DNA of 64,000 bases from Candidatus Melainabacteria bacterium (GTDB lineage: Bacteria; Cyanobacteriota; Vampirovibrionia; LMEP-6097), in the NCBI GenBank assembly GCA_005110385.1, contig DUDT01000016.1, positions 1-64,000 on the forward strand. Direction: 5' to 3'. How positions within the stretch are numbered: the first letter of the stretch is position 1; each line of letters opens with the position of its first letter. Under the pieces are notes generated by a model. It saw nothing but the letters and a program-made list of their open reading frames with translations. It did no database searches and was not told the origin of the DNA. Positions 926 through 58,406 of this stretch are shown piece after piece. The position numbers and the translations under genes are program-made.

Positions 926-2062
926 ATGAGCAGTCCCATGAAAGCCTTAGTCTATTCACCCGCTGCGGCAGCTACAGCTTTTTTAGATTTAATAGAGTAT
1001 GAAACACCTCAGGATACTGAATATTCTTGCTTGATAAAGGTTTTAGGCTGTGGAGTCTGTGGTTCTGATTTACTTAAATTAGAGAGAGCTTTAGTGAAAC
1101 CTAATACTGTCTTAGGTCATGAAATGGTCGGAGAGGTATTCGAAATAAATGAAGCTTTAAGCAGAAAATATAATTTAAAAAAAGGTGACAGAATAGTATC
1201 TTCGCATCATGTACCTTGCGGGAAATGTAATTATTGTCTTAATGATAAGGAAAGCCTCTGCTCACAGTTTAAATCAACGAATTTTAATCCAGGAGCCTTC
1301 TGTGAATATTTAGAACTCAGTGAAGATCATTTAAAACATACTGTAATAAAATTGAATGAAGAAACATCTAACCTCTCCGCAAGCTTCACTGAGCCAGTAG
1401 CCTGCTGCATTAAAGCGATAAAAAAATCTGGATTATTCGCACATAAAGGCTCTACTACTGTATTAATTCTAGGACTTGGTTCTATTGGTCTTATTATCGG
1501 TAGGCTTATTAATTATTATCGCAAGCATAAAGATCTTTTACACTCCTCCGTCTCAGAGTTGTATACCCAGCAAAACTACTATCAAGAAGGAATCAATCTC
1601 TACGGCTGCGACCCCATAGAAACTAAGCTAAAGCTCGCAGCAGAAAGCGGTTTTGATAAAGTCTTTAATGATATAGCTTTAATAAATAACGCTGAAAAAC
1701 CAGACTACATCTTTCTTTCAGCAGGTGCAAATATATGTATCGATTTAGCCATTAGCTATATCCGCGATGGCGGCACTATCGTCGTCTTCTCTAGTGTCCC
1801 CGATAGCGCTAAAGCCTTTACTAATAATGATATTTACTATAAAGAGTTAAGCATAATTAGCAGCTATTCACCGAATCTGAGTGATCTTAAAGAAAGCTAT
1901 CAGCTTATCTCAGAGAATAAAATCCGAGTCTCTGACCTAATTTCACACACCGCTAATTTATCTAATCTCGGTGAAATCATCGTGAAAGCTCGCAAGGATA
2001 ATGGTATTAAAGTCTACTTAGACCTTGGAGACCGTGCGGTCATTCGTCCTCCTCAGCCTTGA
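926..2062 (+). CDS. Zinc-dependent alcohol/polyol dehydrogenase family protein
   Basis: This is a medium-chain dehydrogenase/reductase, probably NAD(P)-dependent oxidation of an alcohol or polyol. Visible motifs in order: GCGVCGSD (catalytic zinc Cys), GHEMVGEV (zinc His-Glu), a structural-zinc cluster PCGKCNYCLNDKESLC, and a Rossmann GLGSIG segment. The length is normal for the family. The start MSSPMKALV is preferred over a 22-codon upstream extension that overlaps the previous gene. The last residues, GDRAVIRPPQP, and the stop codon are read from a truncated palindromic element (2027-2087), so the original C-terminus has been replaced. The substrate cannot be told from sequence; threonine and sorbitol dehydrogenases are relatives. 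Confidence 0.85.
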   Translation: MSSPMKALVYSPAAAATAFLDLIEYETPQDTEYSCLIKVLGCGVCGSDLLKLERALVKPNTVLGHEMVGEVFEINEALSRKYNLKKGDRIVSSHHVPCGKCNYCLNDKESLCSQFKSTNFNPGAFCEYLELSEDHLKHTVIKLNEETSNLSASFTEPVACCIKAIKKSGLFAHKGSTTVLILGLGSIGLIIGRLINYYRKHKDLLHSSVSELYTQQNYYQEGINLYGCDPIETKLKLAAESGFDKVFNDIALINNAEKPDYIFLSAGANICIDLAISYIRDGGTIVVFSSVPDSAKAFTNNDIYYKELSIISSYSPNLSDLKESYQLISENKIRVSDLISHTANLSNLGEIIVKARKDNGIKVYLDLGDRAVIRPPQP

Positions 2063-2087
2063 AACTGCACGTTGTGCAGCGGTCTCC
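2027..2087 (-). repeat. Palindromic element, internally deleted copy
   Basis: Both terminal arms are present (ggagaccg at one end, cggtctcc at the other) along with the left half of the core (the gaggaggacgaatgaccgc segment in sense orientation on the minus strand). About 60 bp of the right half seen in full copies is missing. It overlaps the 3' end of the zinc dehydrogenase and provides its stop codon. Confidence 0.8.
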
Positions 2088-12375: not shown

Positions 12376-13213
12376 AATTGCACATTTCTATCCTGATCTT
12401 TTAAATCTCTATGGTGATTTCGGTAATATTCTCGCCTTGAAAAAACGAGCTGAATGGAGAGGGATAGAAGTTGAAATCGTAAATATTCATCTTAAGTCAA
12501 TGGGGACTGATAATGACAATAAAAAACATACAGAACTTAATTCTTGCGATATTGCTTTTATTGGTGGTGGTCAAGATAAGCAGCAAATGGACGTCGCTGA
12601 AGATTTTTTAGCTAAAAAGCCAGAAATTATCGAAGCGATAGAATCAGATATGCCGTTTTTAGCGGTATGTGGTGGTTATCAGCTGCTCGGTAAATATTAT
12701 GAAACATCTGAAGGGGAGCAGATAGCGGGATTAGACATCTTAGATATCGTGACTAAAGCCCAGAGAAGAGATTCTGGGAAAAAACAGAAAAGACTCATCG
12801 GTAATGTCGTCGCAGACTTGTATTTTCCGCTAAAGTTAGTTGAAGATCTTGATTTAAAGCTTTCTGAATATAAATCAGAGGCTGAAAATTGTTTTAGTTT
12901 AAAAACAGTGGTTGGCTTCGAAAACCATTCTGGGCAGACATTTATAGAAGAAAATTCTAAAACTAAACCCTTCGCTAAAGTAAAAACGGGCTTCGGGAAT
13001 AATGGCGAAGATGGTTTCGAGGGAGCTTATTATAAAAACCTTATAGGGACTTATCTTCACGGTAGTTTACTGCCTAAAAACCCTCATTTAGTAGATGAAC
13101 TGCTGTATCAGGCTTTAAAAAGACGAAATATTTTCTTAGACGCTAAAGAATGGTTAATACCGAATGATACACTTGAAGCAGAAGCTCACGAAAGGGCTTT
13201 AAGCCTACGCTAA
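12356..13213 (+). CDS. gatD: Lipid II isoglutaminyl synthase glutaminase subunit GatD-like
   Basis: It is a class I glutamine amidotransferase of the CobB/CobQ-like GatD type. The N-terminus ILKIAHFYPDLLNLYGDFGNILAL is the GatD signature; FIGGGQDKQQ and LAVCGGYQLLG (nucleophile about Cys105) follow, with LIGTYLHGSLLPKNP near the end. GatD works with MurT to amidate the D-Glu of lipid II, but no murT is adjacent here. The ATG at 12356 is preferred to an upstream TTG because the protein then begins at the conserved block. The stop overlaps the rbgA start (TAATG). Confidence 0.85.
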   Translation: MSSKILKIAHFYPDLLNLYGDFGNILALKKRAEWRGIEVEIVNIHLKSMGTDNDNKKHTELNSCDIAFIGGGQDKQQMDVAEDFLAKKPEIIEAIESDMPFLAVCGGYQLLGKYYETSEGEQIAGLDILDIVTKAQRRDSGKKQKRLIGNVVADLYFPLKLVEDLDLKLSEYKSEAENCFSLKTVVGFENHSGQTFIEENSKTKPFAKVKTGFGNNGEDGFEGAYYKNLIGTYLHGSLLPKNPHLVDELLYQALKRRNIFLDAKEWLIPNDTLEAEAHERALSLR

Positions 13214-14340
13214 TGAACTACGATTTTACGAAAAGACCGAAGCAAAAAAAGACCGAAGCAAAACTTGAAATCGCAGAAGAATCTGCTAAAGAAGGTTTTA
13301 TTCACAGCATAAACTGGTATCCCGGTCATATTGCGAAAGCGGAAAAACAGTTAAAAGAAAAAATCAGCATGATCGATTTCGTGATAGAAGTCAGGGATGC
13401 ACGTATACCATTCGCTAGTCACCATAAAGATCTTAAGGAATGGCTTTCTGGTAAACCTTATATAACTCTTTTAAATAAAAGTGACTTAGCTGATGCAGAA
13501 AAATGTAAAATAGCGAAAAGTATTATAGAAGCAGAAAAAGAAGCGAAAGCGGTGTATCTTGTAAACAGCCGTGCAAGCTCGCTACCTTTAGCCCTTATAA
13601 AAAGCATAGATGAACTAGGTGAAGCTGCGACTAGGAAATTTAAAGCTAAGGGCATACTCAAAAGAGCTGCGAGAATCATGATAGTAGGTTATCCTAATGT
13701 CGGGAAATCTACACTAATTAATAAACTTTCTAAAACCAGAAAAGCTAAAGTGGAAAACCGCCCTGGAGTCACTCAGAGACAGCAGTGGATTCAAGTTAAA
13801 ACTCAGCAAGAAATTCTCTTATTAGATACCCCTGGAATTATTCCGACTAAGCTTTATTCAGATGACCAAGGAGTTAAACTTGCTCTCTGCAACTGTGTTT
13901 CAGGCAAAGCCTACGACCCAATAGAGCTTTTAGTTCACGCAATTCCACTCATAGAAAGTCTTTACCCTAATGCGATTAATAATTACTATGGGGTGGAAAA
14001 TTATAAATCCTTACTAGATGAGGATGCAGTTAAAAAAATACAAACATCTAATAATTTAAATGCAAATAATGAACTCAATGAAACGCTAATTAATAAATTT
14101 TTAGAACTTATAGCTATTAAGAAAGGCTGGTTAAAAAAGGAGACCGATGCACAACGTACAGTTTCAAGGCTGAGGAGGACGAATGACCGCAGTGTACTTA
14201 CAGTACATGAGGATCATGAGGACGACGAAAACGCAGAAAATGGAGTTGTGCATCGGTCTGATGCTGATATGGAGAGGACTGCACTTAAGATTATTAATGA
14301 CTTTCGGGAACAGAAGTTTGCGTTGATGAATCTTGAGTAA
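13213..14340 (+). CDS. rbgA: Ribosome biogenesis GTPase YlqF/RbgA with in-frame element insertion
   Basis: It is a circularly permuted GTPase that helps mature the large ribosomal subunit. Motif order is permuted as expected: INWYPGHIAKAEK, the G4 LLNKSDL, then G1 GYPNVGKSTLIN, G2/switch RPGVTQRQQW and G3 LLDTPGII. At 375 residues it is longer than usual because residues about 310-349 are encoded by a palindromic element. Without it, the C-terminus would read KKGWLKK then DADMERTALKIINDF, the usual family ending. The insert sits in a surface-type linker just before the last helix, and the frame is kept, so the gene is probably functional. Confidence 0.92.
   Translation: MNYDFTKRPKQKKTEAKLEIAEESAKEGFIHSINWYPGHIAKAEKQLKEKISMIDFVIEVRDARIPFASHHKDLKEWLSGKPYITLLNKSDLADAEKCKIAKSIIEAEKEAKAVYLVNSRASSLPLALIKSIDELGEAATRKFKAKGILKRAARIMIVGYPNVGKSTLINKLSKTRKAKVENRPGVTQRQQWIQVKTQQEILLLDTPGIIPTKLYSDDQGVKLALCNCVSGKAYDPIELLVHAIPLIESLYPNAINNYYGVENYKSLLDEDAVKKIQTSNNLNANNELNETLINKFLELIAIKKGWLKKETDAQRTVSRLRRTNDRSVLTVHEDHEDDENAENGVVHRSDADMERTALKIINDFREQKFALMNLE
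14139..14260 (+). repeat. Palindromic element, full copy inside rbgA
   Basis: The copy is 122 bp with arms ggagaccgatgcacaac and gttgtgcatcggtct, which pair almost perfectly. The middle triplet of the arm (gat/atc) differs from other copies but still pairs within this copy. The core has the usual gaggaggacgaatgaccgc and acgcagaaaatggag segments. It is read in frame as RRTNDRSVL then VHEDHEDDENAENG. Confidence 0.92.
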
Positions 14341-15910: not shown

Positions 15911-17194
15911 ATGGACAGAAGAGTCGTTATTACTGGTATTGGACCTGTAACCCCAGTAGGTATAGGTTTAGATGATTTCTGGAGTTCCATGATATCAGGG
16001 AAATCAGGCATTTCTCTCATAGAAGGTTATGAAGAGTCTAAATTTAAACTTCCCGTTAAAATCGGCGGACAAGTTAAAAATTTCGACATTACTAAATACT
16101 GGGATGATCCTAAAAAAGTTAGATCTTTTAATAAGGATATGGACAGGGTAGCTCAATTCGCTGTAGTGGCTGCGAAGCTTGCTATAGAAGATTCTAATGC
16201 GACTATAGATGAGTTCGCTAAATACGGCATAGACCCCTTTAGAATAGCTACTTTCGTAGGCACTGGTATCGGTGGTATTTCTACTACTTGTGACGATGTT
16301 ATAACCCTTTATGAAAGAGGTATTAAGGCTGTAGGTTTAAGATCTATTATTAGGCTTATGCCAAATGCTGCTGCTGGTCACATCGGTATTCTTTGGGGTT
16401 ACAGAGGCAGAGCTAAAGCTGATTCTACGGCTTGTGCTTCTGGTTTAGATAGTGTCGTAGATGCTTACTGGCATATTAAAACTAATCAAGCTGACGCAGT
16501 TATCGCAGGTGGCTCAGAGGCTTGCTTAAATCCACTAGCCATTTCATCTTTTTATAATATGACAGCTCTTTCTAGAAGAGATGCTGAGACTACTGAAGCT
16601 AGCTGCCCATTTGATAAACGCCGTGACGGCTTCGTTATGAGTGAAGGTTCTACTATGTTCGTGCTAGAAGAACTTGAGTTAGCGAAAAAACGTGGTGCAA
16701 AGATTTATGCTGAGCTAGTCGGTGCTGGCGGTAGCTGTGATGCTTATCATATTACAGCTCCTTCTGAAGATGGTAGTGGTGGTGCTTTAGCGATAGAGAC
16801 TGCTTTGAAAACAGCTGGCTTAGAAGGAAATCGTGAAGCTATAGATTATATACATGCTCACGGCACTAGCACACCTTTAAATGATGCTAGAGAAACTAGA
16901 GGTATAAAGAGAGTCTTTGGGGATCATGCTTATAAACTCTGTGTATCTAGTACCAAGTCTATGACTGGTCATTTAATCGGTGCTGCGGGTCCTGTAGGGC
17001 TAGCTGCTGCGACGATGGCGACTATTCACAGTAAAATTCCTCCGACTATTAACTACAAAGAAGCTGATCCAGACTGTGATTTAGATTATGTACCTAATGT
17101 CGCTAGAGATAGGAATGTGGATTATGCTATGGTACAGGCTTTGGGCTTTGGTGGGCATAATACTGTGGCTATAGTTAAGAAGTTTATTAATTAA
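15911..17194 (+). CDS. fabF: 3-oxoacyl-ACP synthase II
   Basis: It is a condensing enzyme of fatty acid elongation. The catalytic Cys-His-His set is present: STACASGLDSV, HAHGTSTPLND and STKSMTGHLIGAAG, and the C-terminal GFGGHN loop is intact. MDRRVVITGIGPVTPVG is taken as the N-terminus rather than an 11-codon upstream extension. No acpP or fabG lies nearby. A short right-end element fragment begins just after the stop codon. Confidence 0.95.
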   Translation: MDRRVVITGIGPVTPVGIGLDDFWSSMISGKSGISLIEGYEESKFKLPVKIGGQVKNFDITKYWDDPKKVRSFNKDMDRVAQFAVVAAKLAIEDSNATIDEFAKYGIDPFRIATFVGTGIGGISTTCDDVITLYERGIKAVGLRSIIRLMPNAAAGHIGILWGYRGRAKADSTACASGLDSVVDAYWHIKTNQADAVIAGGSEACLNPLAISSFYNMTALSRRDAETTEASCPFDKRRDGFVMSEGSTMFVLEELELAKKRGAKIYAELVGAGGSCDAYHITAPSEDGSGGALAIETALKTAGLEGNREAIDYIHAHGTSTPLNDARETRGIKRVFGDHAYKLCVSSTKSMTGHLIGAAGPVGLAAATMATIHSKIPPTINYKEADPDCDLDYVPNVARDRNVDYAMVQALGFGGHNTVAIVKKFIN

Positions 17195-17224
17195 GGCCGC
17201 TGCATAAATCCATTTTCTGCGTTC
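17195..17224 (-). repeat. Palindromic element, right-end fragment
   Basis: In sense orientation the minus strand reads gaacgcagaaaatgga, then a diverged ttatgcagcggcc arm, matching the right end of full copies. It fills the gap between the fabF stop and the ruvA stop and overlaps the ruvA stop codon. Confidence 0.6.
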
Positions 17225-26329: not shown

Positions 26330-27727
26330 ATGCAACTGATAGATCAAAATCCAGAGTCCTTCAAAAGTTCGAAACCAGTTACCTTAATTGATGGAATCGA
26401 AATGATTTTTAAAGATCAAATTTCTACTTATAAAAGCAAGTACCAAGCTAAGTTTAAGGAATTACATAAAGTTCTTCTAGCTCAGGCTAAAGCTGAAACT
26501 CCTAAGCTTGAGTATTTTCAGTGGTTGAATTTTGACTATTTAAAAAATTTAAATGATCTAAAGACTAAGCCTTTAGCTAATAAGTTAAAAGCACAAGGTT
26601 ATGAGAATTTAGTAGTAGTCGGGATGGGTGGTTCAGGGATTAACAGCTTAGTTTTAAATAATGGTCTTCGTGAATTTACGAAGCTTGATGAATCTGCATT
26701 AAAAATATTTATCCAAAATAACTTAGATAGTAGCTCTATGCAAGCTCGTTTAGAGAGTTTAGGTGATGATATTGAAAAGACATTATTTGTAATTATTTCT
26801 AAATCAGGTGGCACTGATGAAGTTAGAAGAAATCTTTACAGTATTATTGCTTACCAGATCGCGAAAAAGCCAGAAAAATTAAAAGATCTCTATAGATCTA
26901 TAGTCTTAATCACAGAACCAGAGAGAGAAGGAAAGAAAAACTTTCTACATGAGTTTAAAAAAGAGATTAAGACTAAATTTGATGTAGATATACCAGTTTT
27001 AGAAAATCACCCTGAGATTGGCGGCAGATTCTCAATGTTTTCACCAGTAGGTATGTTTACCGCTGAATTAATCGGTTTAGACAGTAATGCTTTACTAGAA
27101 GGTGCTGAAGCCTGTTTTAACGATTTTGTGAACGAAGAAGAGCTGAATGACTCTAAAGTAGCGAATCTTGCCTTAATAGATATTATGCTTTCTGACTTAG
27201 CCTATGTTCATCGCTACAGCATGGTTTATGCTGATTCTTTAGAAGCAACGAATAAATTCAGAGCTCAGCTTAAAGGTGAATCACTTAATAAAAATGGCAT
27301 AATCTCTACAGTTCATGTCGCAGGTATAGGGACTGTAAATCATCATTCTGATCTAGAATTACTATTTAAGGATAATAATAATCTAATTCTTGAGCAGATT
27401 TATTTTGCGAAACCCGCTTATGAAGCAGTGAATCCTAAGATTAATTTAGAGATTCTTAAAGATCTCGAAAATGAATCGAACCACGTCTCACTAATTAAGA
27501 ATCATATTAAGCCTCTGAGGGCATACTTAATTGAAAAGGGAAATCCAGTATTAACTACTGTTTTAGCAGAACAGAATGAGTATAATTTAGCTTATTTCCT
27601 TTTTCAAGATATGCTTGTAACTATAGTGCAGGCTGGTATCCAAGACTCCATGGGTAGTTTTGAGAAATTGGATTTATCTATTCGCCAGTGGGAAGTGGAG
27701 AGATATAAGAAGAGCCTTAGTAAATAG
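26330..27727 (+). CDS. pgi: Glucose-6-phosphate isomerase
   Basis: It interconverts glucose-6-phosphate and fructose-6-phosphate. SIS-domain motifs are visible: VVVGMGGSGINSLVL, the phosphate-binding ISKSGGTDEVRRN, and the family signature ENHPEIGGRFSMFSPVGMF; a late active-site QAGIQDSMGSFEKLD is also present. At 465 residues it has bacterial length but is divergent. The 3' end abuts the tRNA nucleotidyltransferase-family gene. Confidence 0.85.
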   Translation: MQLIDQNPESFKSSKPVTLIDGIEMIFKDQISTYKSKYQAKFKELHKVLLAQAKAETPKLEYFQWLNFDYLKNLNDLKTKPLANKLKAQGYENLVVVGMGGSGINSLVLNNGLREFTKLDESALKIFIQNNLDSSSMQARLESLGDDIEKTLFVIISKSGGTDEVRRNLYSIIAYQIAKKPEKLKDLYRSIVLITEPEREGKKNFLHEFKKEIKTKFDVDIPVLENHPEIGGRFSMFSPVGMFTAELIGLDSNALLEGAEACFNDFVNEEELNDSKVANLALIDIMLSDLAYVHRYSMVYADSLEATNKFRAQLKGESLNKNGIISTVHVAGIGTVNHHSDLELLFKDNNNLILEQIYFAKPAYEAVNPKINLEILKDLENESNHVSLIKNHIKPLRAYLIEKGNPVLTTVLAEQNEYNLAYFLFQDMLVTIVQAGIQDSMGSFEKLDLSIRQWEVERYKKSLSK

Positions 27728-27776
27728 TTTGGGACTGCTTGCAAATTTACAAGAGGATTTAATTTACTCCTTGTCC

Positions 27777-28631
27777 ATGCTAGGAAAACTAGCCTATGAT
27801 TCTGGTTTTGAGTTATTTATAGTCGGTGGCGTTTCACGCAATTTAGTTTATCGAATTCTGCATCATAAGGACGACGAGAACGCAGAAAATGGAGGTTGTG
27901 AGGAGGAGACCGCGGCACAACGTGCAGTTTCAAGGCAGAGGAGGACGAATGACCGCAGTGTACTGCAGGTACATGAGGATCATGAGGACGACGAGAACGC
28001 AGAAAATGGAGTTGTGCCGCGGTCTCTAGAGAAGCAAATGCTTACAGAACCCCTAGGTAATGATATTGACTTACTTATTAATACTGCTGCTCTGCCTTGG
28101 CTAAGTTCAGTAAAAGAGAGGTTTAAGCTTTTAACTAAGCGAACACTAATTATTATTGAAGAATTTAAACCTTTTCAAACAGTAAAAGTAAAAATCTCTG
28201 GTCTTGATATTTATGATCTTGAGTTTGCAAGTGCAAGAACTGAGTCTTATTCACAGCCTGCTAGTTTCCCTCAGGTAACTCTTACATCGAGTATTAAAGA
28301 AGATATTTCACGGCGTGATTTTACAATTAATTCGCTATTAATTTCACTTGGTCCATTAAATTTCGCTGAGCTTATAGATTATTCCTCTGCTTTATCTGAC
28401 ATGAAAAAGGGTCTAATAAGAGCGTTTCACTCTAATAGTTTTATAGATGACCCGACGAGAATCTACAGAGCTTTTCGCTTTGCTTTAGAATATGGCTTCG
28501 ATATAGAGTTAAAAACAGCTGAATGGCTTAAAGCAGCCCTAAAAGATGAAAGATTCTCTCTCTGGTTTAAAAAAAGGAAAAATAGATTTAATATCGAACT
28601 GGAAAAATATCGTAGCTTAATTCCTCGCTGA
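27777..28631 (+). CDS. tRNA nucleotidyltransferase / poly(A) polymerase family protein with element insertion
   Basis: It has a class II CCA-adding/poly(A) polymerase head. FELFIVGGVSRNLVY corresponds to the G-G-x-x-R motif, followed after an insertion by LGNDIDLLIN (the DxD metal site), then SRRDFTINSLLIS and DDPTRIYRAFRFALEYGF. Residues about 29-84 come from a palindromic element plus an extra right-end fragment, placed between the GG and DxD motifs. The protein is short (284 residues), lacking much of the C-terminal body. The ATG is my choice; in-frame TTG codons at 27729 and 27660 would extend into or over the pgi end. Confidence 0.75.
   Translation: MLGKLAYDSGFELFIVGGVSRNLVYRILHHKDDENAENGGCEEETAAQRAVSRQRRTNDRSVLQVHEDHEDDENAENGVVPRSLEKQMLTEPLGNDIDLLINTAALPWLSSVKERFKLLTKRTLIIIEEFKPFQTVKVKISGLDIYDLEFASARTESYSQPASFPQVTLTSSIKEDISRRDFTINSLLISLGPLNFAELIDYSSALSDMKKGLIRAFHSNSFIDDPTRIYRAFRFALEYGFDIELKTAEWLKAALKDERFSLWFKKRKNRFNIELEKYRSLIPR
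27861..27900 (+). repeat. Palindromic element, right-end fragment before full copy
   Basis: It matches the right part of the element (aggacgacgagaacgcagaaaatgga...gttgtg) and lies 4 bp before a full copy in the same orientation. One extra G separates it from the consensus. It is read in frame as HKDDENAENGG. Confidence 0.8.
27905..28026 (+). repeat. Palindromic element, full copy inside tRNA nucleotidyltransferase-family gene
   Basis: The copy is 122 bp. The arms gagaccgcggcacaac and gttgtgccgcggtctc are perfect reverse complements; the middle triplet gcg/cgc differs from the rbgA copy (gat/atc), a compensatory change. The core is in frame and gives RRTNDRSVL then VHEDHEDDENAENG. Confidence 0.93.
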
Positions 28632-49799: not shown

Positions 49800-49922
49800 A
49801 GAGACTGCAGCACAACTCCATTTTCTGCGTTTTCGTCGTCCTCGTGATCCTCATGTACAAATAGTACACTGCGGTCATTCGTCCTCCTCAGCCTTGAAAC
49901 TGCACGTTGTGCAGCAGTCTCT
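49800..49922 (-). repeat. Palindromic element, full intergenic copy
   Basis: The copy is 123 bp, sense on the minus strand. The arms agagactgctgcacaac and gttgtgctgcagtctct pair with one central mismatch. The core matches the in-gene copies except for a short segment (ctatttgtac instead of ctgcaggtac). It lies between the AsmA-like gene and tRNA-Ser. The rest of 49615-49961 shows no gene that I can support. Confidence 0.92.
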
Positions 49923-50012: not shown

Positions 50013-50100
50013 TGGCGGACAGAGAGGGATTCGAACCCTCGGTAGCTTGCGCTACGACGGTTTTCAAGACCGCTCCGATCGACCACTCTGGCACCTGTCC
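50013..50100 (-). tRNA. tRNA-Ser (anticodon TGA), CCA encoded
   Basis: On the minus strand the acceptor ggacagg pairs with tctgtcc (one G-U pair), and the anticodon loop cttgaaa carries TGA between ggtc-type stem arms. A long variable arm (tagcgcaagcta hairpin) marks a class II serine tRNA. The T-loop ttcgaat is standard. G discriminator and an encoded CCA end at 50013. Confidence 0.95.
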
Positions 50101-56722: not shown

Positions 56723-57521
56723 TATGTTAGGTATTTTTGTTACCGCCGCTTATCCTTCAGAAGACGCGTGTATTAAGGCTTTAAAGATACTGCACGAAGA
56801 AAAGGTTTCTTTGATTGAGCTTGGCATACCTTTCTCTGACCCTCTTGCTGATGGCCCCGTAATTCAGAATGCGAGTTTTAAAGCTTTAGCTAATGGAATT
56901 AATATAGATAAAATTTTTGATCTTGTCGCTCAAGCTCGATCAGAAGCTGGTTTAGTAGACTCTTGTAATTATGGATTAAATAATATTATTTTCTTCACTT
57001 ACTATAATCCTGTCTACGTCTATGGTATAGAGAAATTAGCTAAAAAGTGTTCAGAATATGGCATTAAAGGCTTACTCATTCCAGATCTGCCAGTGGAAGA
57101 AGCTGAGACCGTTTCTAAAATTTTAAAAACCTATGGACTTACTTTAACTTTACTAGTAGCCATAACTAGCTCAGAGCAGCGAATTGAAAAAATTGTAGAG
57201 CTATCAGAACCATTTATATATTTAGTGAGCCGTATTGGTATAACTGGCTCTGATAGTGATATCACAAAATGGCAAGGAACTAATGCCATTCTAAAGCAGA
57301 AAATAGCTGAAATTCATAAATATGCTCCAGATAAGCCGATTGGCTTAGGATTCGGCATAGATAGTGCTACTAAAGTACGCGATACTTTAGATTTAGGTGT
57401 AGAGATAGCCATTATCGGCACCAAAGCAATTTGCGTCTTAGAAGAAGATCAGAGTCCTGATTTAGAAATATTTAGGGATTTTATAAGATCGGTTAACACT
57501 TCTAAAATAGAGAACGTTTAG
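56712..57521 (+). CDS. trpA: Tryptophan synthase alpha chain
   Basis: It cleaves indole-3-glycerol phosphate to indole, passed to the beta chain. Signatures: IELGIPFSDPLADGPVIQNASFKAL (catalytic Glu and Asp) and IKGLLIPDLPVEEAE, LVSRIGITGS and IGLGFGIDSATKV. The N-terminal helix before the first strand is nearly missing, and starts at 56694, 56712 and 56724 are all possible. No trpB is adjacent. A right-end element fragment starts at its stop codon. Confidence 0.93.
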   Translation: MTSNMLGIFVTAAYPSEDACIKALKILHEEKVSLIELGIPFSDPLADGPVIQNASFKALANGINIDKIFDLVAQARSEAGLVDSCNYGLNNIIFFTYYNPVYVYGIEKLAKKCSEYGIKGLLIPDLPVEEAETVSKILKTYGLTLTLLVAITSSEQRIEKIVELSEPFIYLVSRIGITGSDSDITKWQGTNAILKQKIAEIHKYAPDKPIGLGFGIDSATKVRDTLDLGVEIAIIGTKAICVLEEDQSPDLEIFRDFIRSVNTSKIENV

Positions 57522-57558
57522 ACGAAAACGCAGAAAATGGAGTTGTGCAGCGGTCTCT
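57521..57558 (+). repeat. Palindromic element, right-end fragment
   Basis: It reads gacgaaaacgcagaaaatgg, then agttgtgcagcggtctct, the right end of full copies. It fills the gap between trpA and the short-chain dehydrogenase, and its last base belongs to the stop codon of the latter. Confidence 0.85.
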
Positions 57559-58406
57559 TAAATGTCTAATCCAGCTGTGATATTGATTTGCTCGCCAGTG
57601 ATTCCTTTAGCTGGTTCGGAAAGTAAATAACTAATAGCATGTGCGATTTCTTCAGGTTCTATCCAGCGATTCTGTAAAGTCGCTCCGAGACTGTTTTTAA
57701 CACTATCTTCATTAGGCATCTGATTTAATGCCATATCAGTCTTAACCCAACCTGGACATATACTATTAACTGTAATTTTGTATTTAGCGAACTCCAATGC
57801 AAGACTCTTTGCTAAAGCGATTAAAGCAGCTTTACTTGCACTATATGCTGGAGCATAAAGTTCACCAGTATAGGCACTGACGGATGAGATGAAAATAATT
57901 CGTGAGTAGTCTTTTGGATTAAGCTCGGTATAAGTTTTTAACAGGGGTAAAGCTGCCTTAACTAAATGAAAGGCACCATTTAAATTAACATCTAAAACCC
58001 TCTGCCAGTCATTAAAGCTGTATTCCTCAAAGCATGAACTGTGATATACACCAGCATTTACTATAAGTCCATAGAGGGACTGCTCGCAATCTTCAATTTC
58101 TGCGTTTTCGTCGTCCTCATGATCCTCATGTACCCGCAGTACACTGCGGTCATTCGTCCTCCTCAGCCTTGAACTTGTACGACTGTGAGCAATCCCTTCA
58201 AGATACTGCTCGCAATCTTCAATTTCTGCGTTTGAGAAATAATCTTGGACAGATTTTTCAGAACTTTGATCTAATTCTTGCGAACTCGGTGCTAAGACCT
58301 TATAATCAGACCGACTAAGTAAATAAGCGGCGGACTTACCGATTCCTCGGGAGCCGCCGCTTATTAATATGTTTTTTTTAAACTTAGTTTTCTCTGAATC
58401 ACTCAC
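57558..58406 (-). CDS. Short-chain dehydrogenase/reductase with in-frame element insertion
   Basis: It is an NAD(P)-dependent SDR close to 3-oxoacyl-ACP reductase (FabG). Motifs: ILISGGSRGIGKSAAYLL, LYGLIVNAGVYHSS, the catalytic Ser in FISSVSAYTGELYAPAYSASKAAL (Tyr and Lys of YxxxK), and WVKTDMALNQMP. The length is 282, about 40 more than usual, because residues 59-110 are encoded by a palindromic element and a repeated flank (NAEIEDCEQ on both sides). The insertion sits just before the NAG motif. Confidence 0.9.
   Translation of the reverse strand: MSDSEKTKFKKNILISGGSRGIGKSAAYLLSRSDYKVLAPSSQELDQSSEKSVQDYFSNAEIEDCEQYLEGIAHSRTSSRLRRTNDRSVLRVHEDHEDDENAEIEDCEQSLYGLIVNAGVYHSSCFEEYSFNDWQRVLDVNLNGAFHLVKAALPLLKTYTELNPKDYSRIIFISSVSAYTGELYAPAYSASKAALIALAKSLALEFAKYKITVNSICPGWVKTDMALNQMPNEDSVKNSLGATLQNRWIEPEEIAHAISYLLSEPAKGITGEQINITAGLDI
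58075..58197 (-). repeat. Palindromic element, copy inside short-chain dehydrogenase with different arms
   Basis: The copy is 123 bp, sense on the minus strand. The core from ttcaaggctgaggagg to acgcagaaa matches other copies, but both arms are different: agggattgctcacagtc and gattgcgagcagtccct. They still pair with each other with two G-U pairs and one mismatch. Frame and orientation match the other in-gene copies. Confidence 0.9.
58205..58233 (-). repeat. Direct repeat of the element's right flank
   Basis: The sequence aaacgcagaaattgaagatt (continuing gcgagcagt) recurs here and at the right end of the adjacent full copy, making direct repeats flanking the insertion. Both are read in frame as NAEIEDCEQ. 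Confidence 0.8.

Follow-up and report, generated by a model that had tools for sequence, protein, structure and literature searches.

The gene rbgA in the window (the whole stretch of 64,000 nucleotides analysed here) carries a palindromic segment that is read in frame, and related segments lie in two other, unrelated genes. This raises the question of what these segments are, how they came to be dispersed, and how their host genes accommodate them. The genome concerned (G000; 1.91 Mb in 25 contigs, 88.5% complete) is from an uncultured lineage that is related to cyanobacteria but not photosynthetic and is Caenarcaniphilales-like, within the Vampirovibrionia, as judged from its relatives, among which G001 and G002 belong to the same genus. 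The answer that we consider likely is that the segments are copies of a palindromic mobile element, 121 bp long and of a non-autonomous, MITE-like kind, which behaves like the palindromic elements of Rickettsia (RPE) and Wolbachia (WPE), forms a family separate from them, and is tolerated where it has been inserted in frame.

The three elements first proposed, in rbgA, a PolyA_pol-head gene and an SDR gene, were recovered both by BLAST within the window and by the covariance model (Table 1). They had been described as near-identical; their presence was confirmed, whereas their identity is about 91%, and the copies of the window differ chiefly in the apical loop and the paired arms at either end. 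Translation of the hosts showed all three in sense orientation and in one frame. The insert of rbgA does fall between conserved blocks, with relatives aligning without it, and that of the PolyA_pol-head gene between the two motifs given in Table 1.

Table 1. Copies and remnants of the element, and the genes that hold them, in the window.
Feature	Position	Strand	Evidence or remark
Full-length element in rbgA	14139-14260	+	Element proper ~14140-14260; arms GAGACCGATGCACAAC / GTTGTGCATCGGTCT
rbgA/ylqF (ribosome biogenesis GTPase), host; insert close to C-terminus	13213-14340	+	TIGR03596, 259 bits
Full-length element in PolyA_pol-head (CCA/poly(A) polymerase family) gene, between VGG and DID motifs	27905-28026	+	BLAST, 91% identity; covariance model
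5'-truncated copy (right part only), in frame, abutting the 27905 copy upstream	27862-27900	+	92% over 39 bp
PolyA_pol-head host gene of the 27905 copy	27660-28631	+	PF01743
Full-length element with GGGA-type arms in SDR gene	58075-58197	-	91% over central 91 bp; terminal arms differ
SDR-family host gene of the 58075 copy	57558-58406	-	PF13561 / PF00106
Remnant of earlier copy (AAACGCAGAAATTGAAG), just upstream of the 58075 copy	58217-58233	-	BLAST; common to G001 and G002
Fourth full-length element, intergenic, ~90 bp from tRNA-Ser (50013-50100)	49802-49921	-	BLAST, covariance model
Solitary left half of element	2035-2087	-	51/53 identical
Right end of element at two-gene junction	57521-57556	+	35/36 identical
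Right-end remnant between two convergent ORFs	17194-17223	-	26/30 identical

The copy in the SDR gene has an orthologous copy in both G001 and G002. Truncated right-end copies often sit immediately upstream of full ones, as at 27862-27900 and 58217-58233 and at loci L022, L023, L047 and L081, as if insertion or tandem duplication recurred at one place.

A search of the whole genome and of its relatives showed a larger phenomenon than the earlier note had recorded. The covariance model, built from 37 copies, detected about 58 full-length copies in G000 and many truncated ones, a count that rests on searches, and a 28-nt core was matched exactly or near-exactly at 66 places in this genome versus none for a reversed control pattern. 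In nearly all full copies, the distance from outer end to outer end is exactly 121 bp. Orthologous copies occur in three separately assembled genomes, which speaks against an assembly artefact.

The element is predicted to fold strongly, with a minimum free energy of -50.1 kcal/mol (z = -7.6) for the sense strand and -40.1 (z -5.7) for the other one. A 16-bp terminal stem lies outermost. Inside it come a 3+3-bp helix interrupted by a G-A mismatch, then the internal loop CAAGGC/AACGCAG and a helix made of Watson-Crick pairs in alternation with tandem GA/AG mismatches; beyond these, a short stem bearing a bulged A leads to the apical hairpin GTAC-N5-GTAC, whose loop is variable. Compensatory changes involving both sides were found at 14 of the 16 pairs of the terminal arms, with 95% of cells paired. 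Over the whole structure, 130 double-change cells were counted, compared with a mean of 39.7 after shuffling and with 7-27 in slid registers, and 96.2% of cells were paired versus 29-44% in slid registers. Variation within the family supports the alternating helix. The pairs between its mismatches vary (42-82 is CG, UA, GC or AU; 36-88 is GC, CG or UA; 39-85 is GC or AU, in a comparison of 16 rows, two of which are displaced by one base in this region), whereas the GA/AG positions beside them are mostly invariant, the four tandem mismatches being GA/GA in about 90-97% of distinct rows among same-genus copies.

The earlier note knew of no such family in a genome with this gene content. The folded core itself crosses phyla and is not peculiar to this genome. 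A shared core (CAAGGC..CCGSAGTnnAC-N5-GTnnATGAGG..AACGCAG) was found in at least six other phyla, and a pattern of about 22 fixed bases matched at no fewer than 115 places, with an estimated chance expectation of about 0.1 match in that collection. Among the matches listed are records from Bacteroidota, Chlorobiota, Pseudomonadota, Bdellovibrionota-type, Troglogloeales, Peribacteria and Caenarcaniphilales. Compensatory changes occur at 14 of the 22 predicted pairs in 45 diverse cores, a set in which the invariance of the searched motifs is given by construction and the covariation is not. The genus covariance model alone, with no pattern selection, detected the element in all nine f1 genomes, in three f8 genomes and in one f3 genome.

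In addition, the core coincides with a catalogued RNA. The consensus of sX9 in Rfam (RF02228), AUGuaCCACuCGuaCACUccGGuUCC, is the reverse complement of the apical hairpin of the element, ACCGGAGTGTAC-N5-GTACAT. The sX9 match in Polaromonas (46.5 bits, above the gathering threshold of 44 bits) is itself a copy of the element, and matches below threshold in Chlorobium ferrooxidans (Chlorobium up to 42 bits) fall on element copies. No sX9 hit was obtained in the window element or in its own genome, and the window copy gave only sub-threshold chance hits to Rfam. Judged on sequence, sX9 is an opposite-strand fragment of the core of the element: the Xanthomonas sRNA is defined as a 76-nt RNA from the other strand, with neither terminal arms nor mobility. 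This RNA, third in a review table of the most prevalent bacterial sRNAs (PMC9029176), would be recast as belonging to a family of dispersed repeats that has terminal arms and here and there bears marks of insertion.

The signs of mobility lie at the borders of the 121-bp unit. In a first count in G000, a perfect 5-bp direct repeat was found immediately outside 13 of 58 copies versus 0.74 expected, four of the 13 belonging to tandem arrays with 126-bp spacing. A recount of exact 5-bp flanking repeats gave 11 of 54 in G000 (0.63 expected), 14 of 46 in G001 (0.89) and 6 of 22 in G002 (0.57), and flanking repeats of 4 or 6 bp showed no excess in these three same-genus genomes. Several tandem copies are spaced by 126 bp, that is, 121+5 bp. 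The three copies first reported from the window retain no clear target-site duplication (TSD). In other phyla, the pooled set of TSDs was not significant, the element ends being fuzzy, and repeats of 4-5 bp are visible by eye in copies from Chlorobiaceae and Prevotellaceae. Solitary arms and truncated copies were numerous in a search with the TIR pattern.

These borders weigh on the idea that the copies are RNA structures useful to the host (an mRNA stabiliser, a terminator, or an sRNA such as sX9) that spread by recombination and not by transposition. A core conserved over phyla with compensatory changes, the listing of sX9 among sRNAs, and orthologous copies that are less diverged than their own flanks would all agree with it. 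However, exact 5-bp flanking repeats require insertion through a staggered cut, and the copies lie in unrelated genes, are often deleted in sister genomes and are accompanied by the many solitary arms and truncated copies, so we regard this explanation as unlikely.

A mobile element explains these borders better. Given the 5-bp duplications, a transposase supplied in trans and cutting with a 5-bp stagger would be the agent. An autonomous partner with matching ends was not found in a search with one arm class in two draft genomes; a single arm pair of about 1.5 kb, considered as an autonomous IS, encloses host genes only and no transposase. Multicopy IS elements are often absent from MAGs. The same core occurs with several classes of arm, which would be unusual if a transposase read the arm sequence. 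One arm of the rbgA copy resembles the empty target, a single case that proves nothing about target-templated arms. A plasmid collection gave no DNA-level match to the element. In the genome of Anaerophaga thermohalophila (L173, G060; 4.3 Mb), one arm pattern is matched more than 260 times, which suggests well over 100 related copies, and among 268 arms counted there no IS-sized pair was seen at the places listed.

REP units are 20-40 bp long and carry a GTAG or CGTC tag at one end. Movement of the present element as a REP, in single-stranded form and by a RAYT (Y1) transposase, would suit its strand-asymmetric features, namely tandem G-A pairs on one strand only and a terminal stem with somewhat more G-U than A-C (73 vs 47), and both are palindromic repeats found in part inside ORFs. 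Nevertheless, the element is 121 bp long and flanked by 5-bp TSDs, its alignment shows neither tag as a constant feature of the ends, and PF01797 (RAYT, Y1_Tnp) had no hits in G000, G001 or G002, while it was found in G004, G006 and the controls. Such an origin appears improbable.

Some copies depart from the standard form. Internally deleted hairpins of about 57-86 bp, consisting of the two arms only, were seen in G000 at C4:110424-110480, C11:31829-31905, C20:3057-3133 and C14:349643-349720. A subfamily whose apical loop holds a further palindromic insertion of 81 bp, in frame and encoding ISSDAENASHVSGSYSSKQKYKLDLSS, is found in the same genome at C12:86413-86616 (L083), C14:263375-263578 (L107) and C11:52586-52746 (L101), and forms about as long occur in G001 and G002 too.

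The apical pentaloop (alignment columns 60-64) is identical in 16 of 20 orthologous pairs, with flanks that are 86-100% identical, and hypermutation of the loop in situ is thereby ruled out. Paralogous copies with identical 62-nt cores share the same loop in only 77 of 913 pairs, with a mean of 2.65 of the five bases differing. In genus g5 (G006; L393-L402) the loop is nearly constant, almost always TGGAA. Either the loop is renewed upon copying of the element, or it drifts with the core held by selection or gene conversion, long-term neutral drift around a conserved core being possible; both readings can be held, since TSDs are partly eroded and the loop is nearly constant in G006.

How often genes are entered differs between lineages. 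Long ORFs contain 57 of the 122 copies in the three same-genus genomes, 54 in sense and three in antisense, in contrast to 4 of 85 in other phyla (Fisher p ~4e-12). The full-element copies within ORFs of G000 read frame +1, a uniformity that is partly a matter of definition, as only copies in long ORFs enter this test, and the antisense -1 frame is likewise open in many copies. Of about 65 copies outside ORFs, only 4 would yield a spanning ORF once the element is removed. This leaves no hidden class of out-of-frame insertions, and the suggestion that inserts might be spliced out fails on this point. With about 92% of the window coding and one frame of six permitted, random insertion and subsequent loss of the copies that break a frame would roughly produce the almost equal shares of genes and spacers that were observed, an estimate that assumes such random insertion.

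The host genes are essential and varied. By profile, they include RbgA, MurQ-like, AcrB, GlyS, LexA, PepA, PolyA_pol and SDR proteins, as well as TrmD, photolyase, GltX, TsaC, ValS, glycerol-3-phosphate dehydrogenase/oxidase, TruA and PhoX. A flank search in G000 matched no second genomic copy of TrmD, GltX, TsaC or TruA. At L022:1124-2248 (G000:C17), a single ORF joins an HPPK (FolK) domain with a GNAT acetyltransferase domain, and the element lies within the GNAT part. At L108:10670-11662 (copy G000:C16:70803), it comes right after the signal peptide of a protein with a penicillin-binding-protein transpeptidase domain.

Sister genomes show several states of these sites. The rbgA target is uninterrupted in G001 (GGATACTGATGC), and the net gain over this empty site is 114 bp, not 126. 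In the protein, the insert has the conserved ..IAxxxGW.. segment on one side and the C-terminal DxxRTA..DFREGK helix on the other, and it is missing in every other relative aligned; that these residues belong to an ordinary domain is contradicted by the empty site in a genome of the same genus. Full orthologous copies were found in the SDR, GlyS and GltX genes (GltX in G001), and in-frame trimmed remnants in MurQ, TrmD, PepA, AcrB, TsaC and GltX of sister genomes (GltX in G002). The differences in length between the hosts of G000 and those of G001 or G002 within coding sequence (114, 126, 81, 93, 54, 99, 75, 222 and -30) are all multiples of 3.

The conservation of the frame suggests that the element is translated within its host proteins. 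The resulting peptide would have about 42 residues (..SSRLRRTNDRSVLxVHEDHEDDENAE..), with segments such as TNDRSVL and VHEDHEDDENAE (RbgA/TrmD/GltX). Its GRAVY is -1.3 to -1.5, compared with -0.05 to -0.7 for the frame-1 peptide of the antisense strand, which has several Phe/Leu. A Watson-Crick partner of GAN codons reads NTC (Phe/Leu/Ile/Val); both arms can be purine-rich because tandem G-A pairing replaces Watson-Crick pairing. G004 and G006 have the G-A helix as well, with few of the copies sampled there lying in genes, and for this reason our hypothesis is that the helix probably arose before genes were invaded and was then exapted. In an AlphaFold2 model of RbgA (28 sequences), pLDDT is >90 for the last helix and the greater part of the core and about 47-64 for the insert, which would fit a flexible protrusion.

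The earlier note likened this behaviour to that of the Rickettsia elements, and the likeness stands: the copies are dispersed, palindromic, both intergenic and intragenic, with one open frame and the host unbroken. RPEs are palindromes of about 100-150 bp, found between genes and in frame within them, with one preferred frame (PMC10969869). Such insertions had already been described outside Rickettsia for WPE, palindromes in frame within genes of Wolbachia (PMC4224334), for REPs located within ORFs in several genera (PMC3733652), and for the enterobacterial RU/ERIC sequences, of which RU elements are intragenic and have ORFs (PMC2759123). By description, the present element is like RPE and WPE in being palindromic, dispersed, in frame in unrelated genes and tolerated by its hosts, and differs from them in its phylum, its 5-bp TSDs, its tandem G-A stem pairs and its cross-phylum core. 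True membership in the RPE/WPE family through horizontal acquisition would explain the similar behaviour, size and preferred frame. However, the core is ancient in this lineage, being present in all f1 genomes searched, and its structure is common to Chlorobiota, Bacteroidota and Pseudomonadota, with no Rickettsiales record among the matches listed, so we give this possibility very little credence. A mini-intron or ribosome-bypassing element that leaves host proteins normal is scarcely credible: it would suit the strong, conserved, RNA-like sense fold, but removal needs no open frame, yet genic copies use the single open sense frame, few of the non-ORF copies would regain an ORF on removal, the remnants are all multiples of three, and no relevant self-splicing intron or ribozyme was matched in Rfam (E up to 10 for the window stretch, up to 1 for distant copies).

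Miniature elements of the MITE type (e.g., ERIC/RU, Nezha) are short, have terminal inverted repeats of about 10-40 bp, produce a target-site duplication and lack a transposase. The element described here is comparable in its 16-bp inverted arms, 5-bp TSDs and length of 121 bp, its coding content being the readthrough frame only. In contrast to bacterial MITEs, its interior is conserved across phyla in both sequence and structure while the arms vary, and no autonomous partner was found with the one arm class searched. Our verdict is that it works like the palindromes of Rickettsia and Wolbachia and is built like a MITE, in a distinct family that spans several phyla, includes sX9 and is set apart from RPE and WPE by description.

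Under this mobile-element reading, a copy landing within a gene in the open sense frame would add 42 codons (121 + 5 = 126 bp), and since one sense frame is open, the host would gain a strongly hydrophilic peptide of about 42 residues, which would fold out of the protein and be tolerated. Insertions within genes in other frames or in the other orientation would be lost by selection, and subsequent in-frame deletions would trim the inserts to remnants. The hairpin would be what selection has kept across phyla, most probably because it is the folded strand that the mobility machinery recognises or because the RNA fold is itself of importance. A bolder version, which we offer only tentatively and think doubtful as a whole, takes all of these sequences as one ancient mobile folded family in at least seven phyla, with sX9 a fragment of it; in Caenarcaniphilales, the family would have escaped the coding conflict of a palindrome through tandem G-A pairs, which keep the structure and let both arms be purine-rich and encode hydrophilic residues, and the pentaloop would be re-randomised at each transposition and act as an insertion tag.

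In conclusion, these genomes offer a natural, large-scale experiment in tolerated insertion, in which one peptide of about 42 residues has been accepted in RbgA, TrmD, GltX, GlyS, ValS, TruA, LexA and other proteins, in a lineage distant from Rickettsia and with empty, full and trimmed states seen in sister genomes. The 126-bp unit, the single open hydrophilic frame and the G-A stem together make up a concrete proposed route by which a selfish palindrome may become protein sequence.
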